NCBI GenBank assembly: GCA_017448455.1
Contig: JAFSLL010000115.1
Span: forward strand, 1-45,195
Direction of reading: 5' to 3'
From: Oscillospiraceae bacterium
GTDB lineage: Bacteria > Bacillota > Clostridia > Oscillospirales > Oscillospiraceae
DNA length: 45,195 nt
Both the position numbers and the translations under genes were made by a program. Position 1 is the stretch's first letter; each line of letters begins with the position of its first letter. The notes beneath the pieces are model-generated. The model did not search any database. It worked only from the letters and a program-made list of their open reading frames with translations, and was not told the origin of the DNA. This document shows positions 12,475-16,454 of this stretch, piece by piece.

Positions 12475-13755
12475 TTGGCATCGTTTGTTGATCAGGCGAA
12501 GATCCATCTTCATGCCGGAAAAGGCGGTGACGGCGCAGTAGCGTTTCACCGCGAAAAATATGTCGCGGCGGGAGGACCGGACGGCGGCGACGGCGGACGA
12601 GGCGGGAATGTCGTTTTTGTTGTCGATGATAACATGACTACGCTGATGGACTTTCGCTATAAAAGAAAATATACGGCAGAAAACGGTGCCGACGGTCAGG
12701 GAAAACGCAGTTCCGGCCGCGATGGGGAGGACCTGTTTGTTCGGGTTCCCCGCGGAACACTGATCCGTGATACCGACAGCGGCGCTCTGATGCACGATAT
12801 GTCTGACGGAGAGCCCTATATCGCGGCAAAAGGCGGACGAGGGGGCTGGGGCAATATTCATTTTGCCACGCCGACCCGTCAGGTGCCGCGTTTTGCGAAA
12901 CCGGGGCTGCCGGGTGAAGAACGCGACATCACACTGGAATTAAAACTGCTGGCGGACGTCGGTCTGGTCGGATTTCCAAATGTCGGCAAATCCACGCTTC
13001 TTTCCGTCGTAAGCAAAGCGCATCCCAAAATCGCCAATTACCATTTCACAACACTGTATCCAAACCTCGGCATCGTATACGCCGATGAAGGAAAGAGCTT
13101 TGTGATGGCGGATATTCCCGGCATGATCGAAGGCGCGTCTGACGGAGTCGGGCTCGGACATGATTTTCTTCGACATGTTGAACGCTGCAGACTTCTTGTA
13201 CATGTGGTAGACGCGTCCGGCTCTGAAGGCCGCGATCCTGTGGAGGACTACGAAGTAATCTGTCGGGAGCTTCGTGCCTACGGGTCTGATCTTGCTCAGA
13301 AACCGCAGATTGTAGCCGCGAATAAGTGCGATCTTGTAGACGAAGAGAACGAAGGACTGAAGAAGTTTCTCGAACATGTGGAAGCAGAACAAATCCCGGT
13401 TGTCAGCATCAGCGCCGCTACTCACCGGGGGCTCAAACCGCTGATTGATCTGTGCTTAAAGATGCTTTCGGATTTGCCGCCTGCCGAACCGTTTGAACCG
13501 GATTACATAGAACCCGAAGCGATTCCGGAGACAGCGGAAGATATTCGCATCCTCCACGCTGACGGAGAATGGCAGCTGGAGGGTGAGTGGCTGAAGCGGG
13601 TTGCCGCGTCGGTGAACTTTTCTGATTATGAGAGCAGAATGTATTTTGACCGTACACTTCGGCGGGCAGGTGTGTTTGACCGCCTGGAAAGCATGGGGGT
13701 TCAGGAAAACGATACGATCTGCATCTATGATTTGATTTTTGATTATCATTTCTGA
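12475..13755 (+). CDS. obgE: Obg family GTPase
   Basis: Obg is an essential ribosome-associated GTPase involved in 50S assembly and stress responses. The 426-residue protein has the three parts of the Firmicute form: a glycine-rich Obg fold (residues 1-158, with GGKGGDGAVAFHREK and GGDGGRGG), a G domain (P-loop GFPNVGKSTLL, G3 DIPGMIEGA, G4 NKCD), and a C-terminal OCT domain (about 345-426, EWLKRVAASVNFSDYES). Start: TTG 12475, six bases after GGAGGG. It follows the L21-L27 genes as in most bacteria. The vanZ gene begins one base after its stop. Confidence 0.95.
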   Translation: MASFVDQAKIHLHAGKGGDGAVAFHREKYVAAGGPDGGDGGRGGNVVFVVDDNMTTLMDFRYKRKYTAENGADGQGKRSSGRDGEDLFVRVPRGTLIRDTDSGALMHDMSDGEPYIAAKGGRGGWGNIHFATPTRQVPRFAKPGLPGEERDITLELKLLADVGLVGFPNVGKSTLLSVVSKAHPKIANYHFTTLYPNLGIVYADEGKSFVMADIPGMIEGASDGVGLGHDFLRHVERCRLLVHVVDASGSEGRDPVEDYEVICRELRAYGSDLAQKPQIVAANKCDLVDEENEGLKKFLEHVEAEQIPVVSISAATHRGLKPLIDLCLKMLSDLPPAEPFEPDYIEPEAIPETAEDIRILHADGEWQLEGEWLKRVAASVNFSDYESRMYFDRTLRRAGVFDRLESMGVQENDTICIYDLIFDYHF

Positions 13756-13756
13756 T

Positions 13757-14221
13757 ATGAGCAGACGCCGAAAACGGCTGTGGTTTTACGGAGGATTCAC
13801 AGCTCTTGTTATGCTGATGATTTTCTGTTTTTCTGCCCAGGACGGCACAGACTCGGGGAATCTCAGCAATTGGTTTTCAACAACGCCGGTCGGCCGGCTG
13901 ATCATGGGGCTCCTGCCACCGATGACCGGAGAGGGAAGCGGCGCGGATTTGCGCAAGTTCGCGCATATGACAGAGTTCGCGCTTCTGGCATTTTTCTCTT
14001 TTCATTATTTGCGTGCTTTGATAATGCGGTCAAAAGATCTGTTCATTATTTTATGCACGTTTCTCTTCTGTTTCTTTTACGCATGCACAGACGAGTTTCA
14101 TCAGATCTTTGTTCCGGGACGTGTCGGATGCTTTCGTGATGTTCTGATTGACTGCGCCGGTTCCGGATTCTGTTTGATTCTACTTTGGCTTTTCTTCAGG
14201 TTGAGAAAGGATCGGATATGA
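13757..14221 (+). CDS. VanZ family membrane protein
   Basis: A 154-residue protein with about four membrane segments. It carries the VanZ-family marks: FSAQDGTDSGN after the first segment, RKFAHMTEFALLAF, and CTDEFHQIFVPGRVG followed by RDVLIDCAGS. VanZ-like proteins are widespread in Firmicutes; VanZ itself gives low teicoplanin resistance, but the molecular role is unknown. I choose ATG 13757, one base after the obgE stop; an earlier ATG at 13739 would overlap obgE. There is no strong ribosome site, which suggests coupling to obgE translation. Its stop overlaps the next gene as ATGA. Confidence 0.88.
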   Translation: MSRRRKRLWFYGGFTALVMLMIFCFSAQDGTDSGNLSNWFSTTPVGRLIMGLLPPMTGEGSGADLRKFAHMTEFALLAFFSFHYLRALIMRSKDLFIILCTFLFCFFYACTDEFHQIFVPGRVGCFRDVLIDCAGSGFCLILLWLFFRLRKDRI

Positions 14222-15891
14222 GTAAGCACGGTAAAACAGAAAGTAGGATTCCTCCTATCCTGGCGATTCCGGATAAGCTTGAAGCTTTCTGGAAGAAGCT
14301 GCTCTCTCTGCGCCTTCCGCTGTATCGTTATTTCTCGGTGTTTGATTTTGCGTTCCTGCTGATTGCCTTCATCCTGCTGATTGCCGGTTTCACGCCTTGG
14401 CTCTCTTCCGCACGGACAACACTTTGTGTGATCTCTGCGTCTCTCTCCCTGGTCCCGGTGCTGTATCATGCGATTTGCCTGGTGAAAGAACGGGTAGTGC
14501 CTGTTCAGGAGATGGTAATTCTGGTTCTGACGCTCCTCCTGCTCCTGACCGGAGAATCATCCGCGGCGGTAATCGTTCCTCTCCTGGCGGGCTGTCTGTA
14601 TCTGGTGGAAGCATACGCCATGCTGCACAGAGAGGCGGAAATGGAACGGCTTGAGACACTGGACGAAGAACTCCGTATGCATACTCCGGACGAGGAAAGA
14701 ACCGGAAAGGGACGCGTCCTCTGTTCCATCGCGCTTGCGTTCTTTGCGTTTTTTATCCTGATGGCTTTGATTTTCGCCTTGGTGGCTTTGTTTCATCGGG
14801 ATAACGCAGTCCTTTCCCTTCGCCGATGTGAACTGTTTTTGCTTCTGTCATTTCCGACAGCAGCTCTGTTTTCATTTCGCCTCTGCCATTTGGGGATTTT
14901 CAGCAGTTCATCTTACGAACGTATCGTTTATCGGAATGATGAGATCCCCGAACTCCTGTCCCGCTGCAGCATATTCGCTTTCAGCAAGACAGGGACGATC
15001 ACGGATGGACGGTTTCGGATCGGCGAAATCTGCCCGGTCGGAATCAGCGAAGAAGATCTTCTCCGCATAGCCGCGGTTGGTGAGTGCCGGTCAACGCATC
15101 CCATTGCTCTCGCCATTCGCCGCGCGGCAGGGCTGCGTGATGACGCCAGACTGGAAGGTCTTCAGGAGACAGAAGAAATCCCCGGGAAAGGTGTCAGTAC
15201 ATTCTTCGGCGGCAGGCATATTTATGTTGGCAATGGCGAATTTCTCGATGAGCACGGAATCTGGTATCAAGTTCCGTCACAGACAGGTTCCGCTGTTCAT
15301 GTTGCGGTTGACAGTACCTATCGCGGGTATCTGATGATTTCGGATACCATACGTGAAAACGCGTTTGAAGCTTTGGAAGAGCTGCGTGCGCAGCGGGTAT
15401 CTACCCTGGTGATGCTGACCGGCGATGTCCGCTCTGCTGCGCGTAACCTGGCAGCCTCTATGAATTTTGATATGGTGAAATCCGGACTCCAGCCGGAAGA
15501 AAAAGCTTCCGCAGTTGCGTTCCTGCGCTCTTCACAGGACGGACAGGTGTCCATTGCCTGTGTCGGTGACGGATTTCATGATTCTGACATGTTCCATGCA
15601 GCCGATGTTTCCGTCTGCCTGAATGCCGAAAATGACATGGATGCCGACATCCGCATATTCTCCGGGGAAATTATGAAGATTCCGGCGATTTATCGTTTCT
15701 GCAGAAGATACGTTATGATGAGAAGGATCTGTGTGTTTTCCGTTTTCGGAATAAAACTGCTTCTGTGCCTTCTTGGCCTGTTTACAAACCTTCCTGTGGC
15801 CCTGATTGCTGTTCTGGATGCGGTTGTCGGAATCGGTGCGTTGGTTTACGCGCTGACTTCTCTTCATATGAATTTGGGAAAGAACACATGA
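14218..15891 (+). CDS. degenerate P1B-type ATPase (predicted non-pumping), catalytic Asp replaced by Ser
   Basis: The 557-residue protein descends from heavy-metal P-type ATPases. Membrane segments lie at about 40-62, 66-90, 98-136, 167-193, 199-224 and two near the C-terminus (505-548). The TM3-TM4 stretch LTGESSAAVIVPLLAG matches the IGExxEAAxV element of that family. The catalytic DKTGT is SKTGT here (Ser256). The metal-site CPC of the membrane core is FPT (212-214). Only about 30 residues separate the fourth and fifth segments, so the actuator domain with its TGE loop is missing. Yet the nucleotide-site motifs remain: HP at 294-295, GKGV, TGD at 401-403, Lys429 in PEEK, and GDGFHD at 450-455. 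It probably binds nucleotide but cannot form the phosphoenzyme. The frame is intact and overlaps vanZ and the HAD gene by four bases each. AAAGGA precedes ATG 14218. Confidence 0.85.
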   Translation: MSKHGKTESRIPPILAIPDKLEAFWKKLLSLRLPLYRYFSVFDFAFLLIAFILLIAGFTPWLSSARTTLCVISASLSLVPVLYHAICLVKERVVPVQEMVILVLTLLLLLTGESSAAVIVPLLAGCLYLVEAYAMLHREAEMERLETLDEELRMHTPDEERTGKGRVLCSIALAFFAFFILMALIFALVALFHRDNAVLSLRRCELFLLLSFPTAALFSFRLCHLGIFSSSSYERIVYRNDEIPELLSRCSIFAFSKTGTITDGRFRIGEICPVGISEEDLLRIAAVGECRSTHPIALAIRRAAGLRDDARLEGLQETEEIPGKGVSTFFGGRHIYVGNGEFLDEHGIWYQVPSQTGSAVHVAVDSTYRGYLMISDTIRENAFEALEELRAQRVSTLVMLTGDVRSAARNLAASMNFDMVKSGLQPEEKASAVAFLRSSQDGQVSIACVGDGFHDSDMFHAADVSVCLNAENDMDADIRIFSGEIMKIPAIYRFCRRYVMMRRICVFSVFGIKLLLCLLGLFTNLPVALIAVLDAVVGIGALVYALTSLHMNLGKNT

Positions 15892-16454
15892 ATGTTTATG
15901 ATTTTGATGAGACTATATTTCATCCGGACAGTTCTTTCCGGTTTGTTTTATACTGTCTCCGACACTATACGCGCGCGGTGCTGTCCATAGTGCCGGTTTC
16001 GGTGTTCCGTTATGCGCAGTATCTTTCCGACGGCAGAAAAGACGCGAAGCCTTTGAAGGAGGGCCTGTTTTCTTTTCTGAACCGTATTGATAATGTGGAA
16101 CAGGTTGTCACGGAATTCTGGAACGAGAATATCTCCGGACTTCAGCAATGGTATCTGGAGCAGAAGCGGGATGACGATGTCATCATCTCTGCCTCTCCTG
16201 AATTTCTGCTTGAGCCGGTTGCCGAGATGTTAGGCGTTCACCTGATTGCGACAAAGATGAACCCCTATACCGGGAAGATCATCGGCCGCAACTGTCATGA
16301 CGAAGAAAAGCTGGTCCGATTCCGTAAACAGTATCCGGAAGCCTGTGTCAACGCCTTTTATTCAGATTCCTTCAGTGACGAACCGATGGCGGCAATTGCC
16401 CGGGCCGCGTATCTGGTCAGGGATGGCATTCCTCATCCATGGCCCTGGAAATAA
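15888..16454 (+). CDS. HAD-superfamily IB phosphatase (SerB-like)
   Basis: A 188-residue HAD phosphatase. Motif I is YDFDET at residues 4-9 (nucleophile Asp5, acid/base Asp7), motif II is DVIISASPEFL (Ser), the Lys of motif III lies in EEKLVRF, and motif IV is YSDSFSDEPM (two acidic residues for Mg). A helical cap lies between motifs I and II. The fold suits small phosphorylated metabolites or lipid phosphates; the substrate is unknown. Start: ATG 15888, overlapping the previous stop as ATGA. In-frame codons upstream lie within the ATPase-like gene and do not match the family. The gene ends an operon with obgE, vanZ and the ATPase-like gene and is followed by a terminator. Confidence 0.87.
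   Translation: MNVYDFDETIFHPDSSFRFVLYCLRHYTRAVLSIVPVSVFRYAQYLSDGRKDAKPLKEGLFSFLNRIDNVEQVVTEFWNENISGLQQWYLEQKRDDDVIISASPEFLLEPVAEMLGVHLIATKMNPYTGKIIGRNCHDEEKLVRFRKQYPEACVNAFYSDSFSDEPMAAIARAAYLVRDGIPHPWPWK

Follow-up and report, generated by a model that had tools for sequence, protein, structure and literature searches.

A putative P-type ATPase pseudoenzyme encoded beside a HAD-IB phosphatase gene in Oscillospiraceae

The window, by which we mean the whole stretch of 45,195 nucleotides that was analysed, carries a gene whose product appears to be a pseudoenzyme of the P-type ATPase superfamily, to judge from its homology to these ATPases, its loss of their catalytic residues and the signs of purifying selection. 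Because the motor and the metal site have been lost and the ATP-binding head is under selection, the protein has probably turned into a regulator or scaffold. We propose, with a probability of about one half, that this pseudo-pump descends from a zinc/cadmium P1B efflux pump and acts as a membrane-anchored, nucleotide-binding regulator or scaffold whose predicted partner is the HAD-IB phosphatase.

Results

A P1B-type protein without the parts of a pump

The gene (14218..15891, plus strand) encodes 557 residues and was assigned, from its open reading frame, alignment, tree and AlphaFold model, to a set of pseudo-P1B-ATPases that we call family A. As an earlier note on this DNA had stated, the frame is open and coupled to both neighbours, with ATGA overlaps joining its start to a gene for a VanZ-like membrane protein (13739..14221, plus strand; recognized from its ORF and by Pfam) and its end to a gene for a HAD-IB phosphatase (15888..16454, plus strand). 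The substitutions that the note had described were also seen in the alignment: residues 256–260 read SKTGT in the place of the DKTGT of pumps, with the phosphorylation site itself, Ser256, encoded by AGC (14983..14985, plus strand) where pumps have Asp and sister lineages Gly, and FPT (residues 212–214; 14851..14859, plus strand) replaces the CPC metal motif of M4. The actuator (A) domain is missing, again as the note had it. Pfam did not find the actuator family PF00122 in the window protein, having detected it in L068, the sole in-genus A-domain orthologue scanned, and the domain is also absent from the alignment and from the AlphaFold model (pLDDT 88.8, pTM 0.80), in which a short link of only 16 residues (147–162; 14656..14703, plus strand) joins two long helices (114–146 and 163–192) at the place that the domain occupies in pumps. 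The remaining parts of the protein retain the overall P1B fold.

Set against the ZntA/CadA P1B heavy-metal ATPases (TIGR01525/TIGR01512), then, the window protein is without the phosphorylated Asp, the actuator domain and CPC; its match to TIGR01525 (187 bits) lies below the curated cut-off of 346.25, and its match to TIGR01512 is likewise far under the cut-off. It scores 102.7 bits against TIGR01494, the HAD-IC family of P-type ATPases, which is above the cut-off of 62.3. Pfam found PF00702 in it, and the alignment showed HP, TGD (15418..15426, plus strand), PEEK and GDGFHD (15565..15582, plus strand) all to be present, in agreement with the note's account of these motifs. Kept as well are the four N-domain residues that form the ATP site of P1B pumps, Glu289 and His294 (15082..15099, plus strand) and Gly323 and Gly325 (15184..15192, plus strand), which we take from work on CopA to be the ATP-binding residues. 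A scan of a collection of genome contigs with the window protein as query returned one locus. The window's own genome, a fragmented assembly with 7% contamination, also encodes an intact P1B pump (C169).

Catalytic residues and the ATP site across family A

Family A orthologues were present in 37 of the 40 same-genus genomes examined (34 of the first 37, counting the window's own, together with G284, G376 and G523), and the closest matches among 60 relatives came from the same genus. The four least complete of those first 37 include the three genomes that gave no orthologue match (G007, G009 and G028; 68, 65 and 57% complete), although an orthologue is present in G021, which is 67% complete. 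A further orthologue, L025, comes from an Oscillospiraceae bacterium, a MAG from roe deer abomasum.

Residues were counted in an alignment that held 34 family A rows (the window protein, L025 and 32 same-genus orthologues, with the contig-end-cut G011 dropped) and 37 canonical rows, the latter being 7 controls and the best-scoring 30 order-search matches rather than a random draw, with the G040 gene counted twice. The P-site, TGE, CPC and N-domain residues were kept in every canonical row. The 34 family A orthologues, which form one clade (support 100/99 in the careful tree), keep TGE in no row (its Glu alone in two) and the exact CPC in one, and retain M2 Glu in 5, M5 Lys in 22 and M6 Asp in 10. 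At the phosphorylation site, where the earlier note had suggested searching for other residues, they have Gly (10 rows), Asp (10), Ser (6), Glu (4), Asn (3) or Thr (1). The N-domain Glu is present in 34 of the 34, His in 33 and the two glycines in 31 and 34; 33 rows have the Asp of TGD, every row has the P-domain Lys and the KTGT Thr, and only 25 have the Asp of GDG, which helps bind Mg. The in-genus orthologues that have an A domain (~645–790 residues) share with the window protein its clade, its head and mostly its HAD neighbour, and differ from it in keeping that domain minus TGE and in carrying D, G, S, E, N or T at the P-site.

Since 10 of the 34 rows retain Asp, not every family A member is non-phosphorylatable, and one could suppose that the DKTGT-keeping lineages are phosphorylatable switches, with the Ser and Gly lineages, the window's among them, as later derivatives. 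In favour of such switches, none of the Asp-keeping rows has a full TGE, the loss of which should trap the phosphoenzyme, and the P-site needs at least nine changes on a wider quick tree (from which the long branch of G014 was left out, and in which 11 of 18 newly fetched family B loci, described below, were used). We nevertheless judge this account quite improbable, and it is inapplicable to the window protein itself, whose P-site residue, Ser, accepts phosphate poorly in HAD folds.

A nested clade without the actuator domain

Four of the 34 rows lack the A domain, and these form one nested clade (100/99) near a clade that carries Gly at the P-site. The three orthologues that share the actuator-less architecture do so at 48–49% identity to the window protein, which puts the architecture beyond chance. 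One of the four actuator-less proteins, that of G015, carries Gly (codon GGA) at the P-site. The earlier note had observed that a change from Asp to AGC takes two base changes; the P-site codons are compatible with two single steps, GAY to GGY and then GGC to AGC, and in the lineage of the window Ser probably arose at the site through Gly (D to G to S), in an order of steps that we infer from the codons.

A read error, which the note had already discounted, and a single recent mutation were both rejected, the architecture being common to three relatives and Gly being present in the sister clade. The note had held that homologues in close relatives with DKTGT and an A domain would mark the change as recent. 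Such orthologues do exist, but the 30 in-genus rows with an A domain all lack TGE and the three nearest relatives have the window's own architecture; the homologues were as anticipated, and the recency was not borne out.

Purifying selection and conservation of the head

The dN/dS comparison that had been proposed for this gene gave whole-gene values of 0.07–0.30 in 18 of 18 family A pairs with more than 60% identity (Nei–Gojobori), with dN lower in the head than in the remainder in all 18; these ratios are rough because dS exceeds 1 in 17 of the pairs and 2 in six, and the pairs come from few clades, none of them including the window protein. For the window protein we relied on codon-position contrasts, the only ones available: over the six pairs of its clade, the three codon positions differ by 0.20–0.22, 0.15–0.20 and 0.49–0.60 in the head and by 0.45–0.53, 0.29–0.41 and 0.60–0.67 outside it.

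The conservation of residues follows the same division. Mean identity over all family A pairs is 0.50 in the head and 0.25–0.30 in the membrane parts, compared with 0.54–0.57 and 0.54–0.72, respectively, in canonical pumps, and the 221-residue cytosolic P/N head (residues 250–470; 14965..15627, plus strand) contains 45 of the 48 family A columns with ≥90% conservation. Thirteen columns are ≥85% conserved in family A for a residue that ≤15% of canonical rows share. An N-terminal Met and His, which depend on the chosen starts, account for two; the remaining eleven fall within the head or directly behind it, with several on P-domain helices (382–391, 405–415 and 426–439). As far as the alignments can tell, this pattern looks like a changed role, not decay.

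Frames were open in the orthologues that we read, with the exception of G011, which is merely cut by a contig end, and single stops inside the matches of G010, G023 and G019 proved, when checked against ORFs, to be the genes' own ends. The frame loss that the earlier note had named as the mark of a decaying gene was thus not observed in relatives, and a pseudogene was rejected on the open frames and low dN/dS. A decaying pseudogene or an assembly artefact is, in our view, barely credible: the catalytic residues are gone and the assembly is fragmented and partly contaminated, but the architecture is repeated with open frames in three other genomes, dN/dS is low in relatives, and the link to the HAD gene is conserved.

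Another reading of the same conservation is that the protein is a structural scaffold or assembly factor that does not bind nucleotide, its head being kept for shape and surface alone. The catalytic Asp drifts, the Mg ligand is often lost and the newly conserved residues sit on P-domain helices, all of which would suit a pure scaffold; the four ATP-site residues, however, are nearly invariant in family A, and family B shows that the Glu and His can go when not needed. We regard this reading as possible and somewhat doubtful. The earlier note had suggested a new role such as that of a nucleotide-sensing membrane protein: the loss of pump parts, the genus-wide retention of the head and the signs of purifying selection favour the new role, and the sensing of nucleotide is a further step that we infer.

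A conserved HAD-IB phosphatase neighbour

In 34 of the 37 same-genus loci, a HAD-IB phosphatase gene lies downstream of the pseudo-pump, immediately next to it in 24 and separated by one gene's length in 10 (493–542 bases in L044, L060 and eight others); the intervening gene is a nitroreductase in both loci scanned with Pfam. No HAD gene was found beside the family A gene in G014, G376 and G523, and these three exceptions, together with the ten intervening genes, mean that a strict pair is not required. The phosphatase motifs DxD, [ST]ASP, Lys and SD...D are kept in all 40 distinct loci aligned (45 rows, five being repeats of the same place). Being co-encoded and catalytically complete in its motifs, the HAD-IB phosphatase is the best candidate for a partner.

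No such HAD gene occurs at six in-genus canonical P1B control loci. HAD-IB relatives were matched in 17 of 117 genomes of the order, the window's own included; when these 17 loci were viewed with flanks of ~1.5 kb, a P1B gene turned up at one of them, L159, where it follows the HAD gene. Seven listed genomes from other genera of the same family gave no match to the window's HAD-IB phosphatase (15888–16454) at E 1e-10; a gene of its type is present in the sister genus g215.

The other neighbours vary. Across the 38 family A loci (the 37 same-genus loci and L025, with contig ends limiting some flanks), obgE lies upstream inside the fetched flank in 15 and a vanZ-like gene adjoins the family A gene in nine. 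One fixed locus for family A was rejected on these counts, the order in the window being one of several. In G376 and G523 the family A gene showed no obgE and no HAD gene nearby, and for that reason the orthology of these two rests on the tree.

HAD-linked orthologues in a sister genus

The order-wide search gave matches in 136 genomes; outside the genus, its best 29 matches and one from another search were read, and all were canonical. Of six other-genus matches in a further search, one was read. Five HAD-linked orthologues in g215 surfaced only through a search of the genomes that bear family B, and further genera may therefore contain others. In a quick tree these five join family A (SH-aLRT 99) as its sister clade (100), and four of them (G520, G481, G433 and G369) keep TGE, CPC and DKTGT alike. 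In the fifth, G557 (L246), TGE is TGD, CPC is lost and DKTGT stays, apparently a separate second decay.

Directly upstream of two of the five g215 loci (L243 and L245) is an ArsR-family gene with a CVCDL motif; none was found at the other three, one of them (L247) truncated by the end of its contig. A related ArsR gene precedes family A in three genomes of the window's genus (G016, G029 and G026), these regulators of dead pumps lying at L044:4926-5240, L055:4923-5240 and L057:7963-8403, and here CVCDL has become CVLD or RVLD, with one or both cysteines lost. A D-H-H-E pattern near the ArsR C terminus, which we presume to resemble the second zinc site of SmtB/CzrA, is kept despite the cysteine loss. 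The motif-complete, HAD-linked orthologues of g215, with the ArsR gene upstream in two cases, point to an ancestral operon of arsR, metal pump and HAD-IB phosphatase, most likely one of the ordinary metal-efflux kind. The ArsR sensor and the pump most likely lost their metal ligands together, if the motifs are a guide.

A second actuator-less family with the reciprocal losses

A second set of P1B-derived proteins without an actuator domain, which we call family B (~530–650 residues, open frames), is encoded behind fba in five genera (L026-L031, L108-L133, L135-L149 and L195-L212). An fba-cluster ORF precedes the family B gene in all 21 loci of one set, and fba precedes it in 17 of 18 loci of a second, the remaining one being cut by a contig end; integrase-like and radA-like genes are often nearby. 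Family B was found in 29 of the 40 same-genus genomes, a looser search of the other 11 yielding no more; outside the genus it turned up in 14 genomes from four further genera that belong to the same taxonomic family. In trees it is a single clade separate from family A, and a member from the window's genus had no Pfam match at 0.001. The family B alignment leaves out L124 and L131, and five B-search matches of 654–701 residues (G357, G501, G522, G437 and G327) went unread.

Like the window protein, family B derives from P1B pumps and has no A domain; it differs in having kept the membrane metal-path residues and lost the ATP-site Glu and His and the GDG Asp. All 24 aligned proteins from the window's genus have M2 Glu, M4 Pro, M5 Asn, M5 Lys and M6 Asp, and none has the N-domain Glu or His or the GDG Asp; every one has Gln in place of the His, at the position aligned with CopA His462. 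All 24 also retain both N-domain glycines, and 22 retain the P-site Asp. None of these 24 proteins has the CPC cysteines; CPC is still present in family B of g209 and g150, where the actuator domain is absent. One genome, G304, has two family B copies (L208 and L209), each with CPC intact. Identity within family B is 0.41–0.56 in the membrane parts and 0.45 in the head, less lopsided than in family A. At the level of residues, family A appears to retain the nucleotide site and family B the metal path, a pattern of reciprocal decay.

Complementary residues of this kind, and the intact P1B pump in the same genome, would be expected if the family A protein were still part of a transporter, a heteromer that takes its missing parts from a canonical pump or from family B. 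This we consider unlikely: the metal ligands of family A are mostly lost and its membrane parts are least conserved, and a search of the window's assembly gave no family B gene, though the B locus may be absent from it. Aldolase and integrase-like genes do occur in that assembly, but they differ from those of the B locus, so the locus is probably missing from the assembly, and absence from the genome cannot be claimed. Also improbable, to our minds, is a division of labour between the two families, with family B sensing or passing on metal and family A sensing nucleotide; this would be a dismantled transport ATPase reassembled into a metal- and energy-responsive signalling complex, or else a complementing heteromeric pump.

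Discussion

Our preferred reading is that of a nucleotide-binding regulator or scaffold that was once a pump. The ancestor would have been a pump whose operon also encoded a HAD-IB phosphatase and, probably, a metal sensor of the ArsR type. In the window's genus the pump lost its metal site and the glutamate of its actuator domain, and most lineages lost the phosphorylated Asp as well; the window's clade then deleted the actuator domain in one event. Throughout, the gene stayed open and constrained, with the constraint moving to the cytosolic P/N head and the ATP-binding residues. These steps draw on the sequence comparisons above, and those that follow reach beyond them. The membrane helices would now mainly serve as an anchor, and the head would still bind adenine nucleotide; in the Ser and Gly lineages it would neither be phosphorylated nor drive transport. 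Its role would be to regulate or scaffold a partner in a nucleotide-dependent manner, and the likeliest partner is the HAD-IB phosphatase, which is co-encoded and apparently intact. The intact P1B pump elsewhere in the genome can presumably cover metal export, which would free the pseudo-pump copy.

Pseudokinases and other pseudoenzymes have lost a catalytic residue, keep a nucleotide-binding fold and have regulatory roles; the window protein differs from pseudokinases in being derived from a transport ATPase. A literature search in which some queries were narrow and subscription journals were mostly uncovered found no P-type ATPase pseudoenzyme family. Pseudoenzymes as such are already known, and a conserved family of them among the P-type ATPases is an apparent new addition, the reciprocal decay of families A and B being the most novel part of the findings.

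Because TIGR01494 still matches above its cut-off, such genes are likely annotated as pumps, with transport over-predicted as a result. The genus and its sister genus show a graded series that runs from an apparently intact pump, through loss of TGE and CPC and then of Asp, to loss of the whole actuator domain, with the same HAD-IB gene alongside in most cases, and this series lets one ask what role a non-pumping P-type head has. The reciprocal decay of family B offers a natural dissection of the functions of the head and of the membrane parts.
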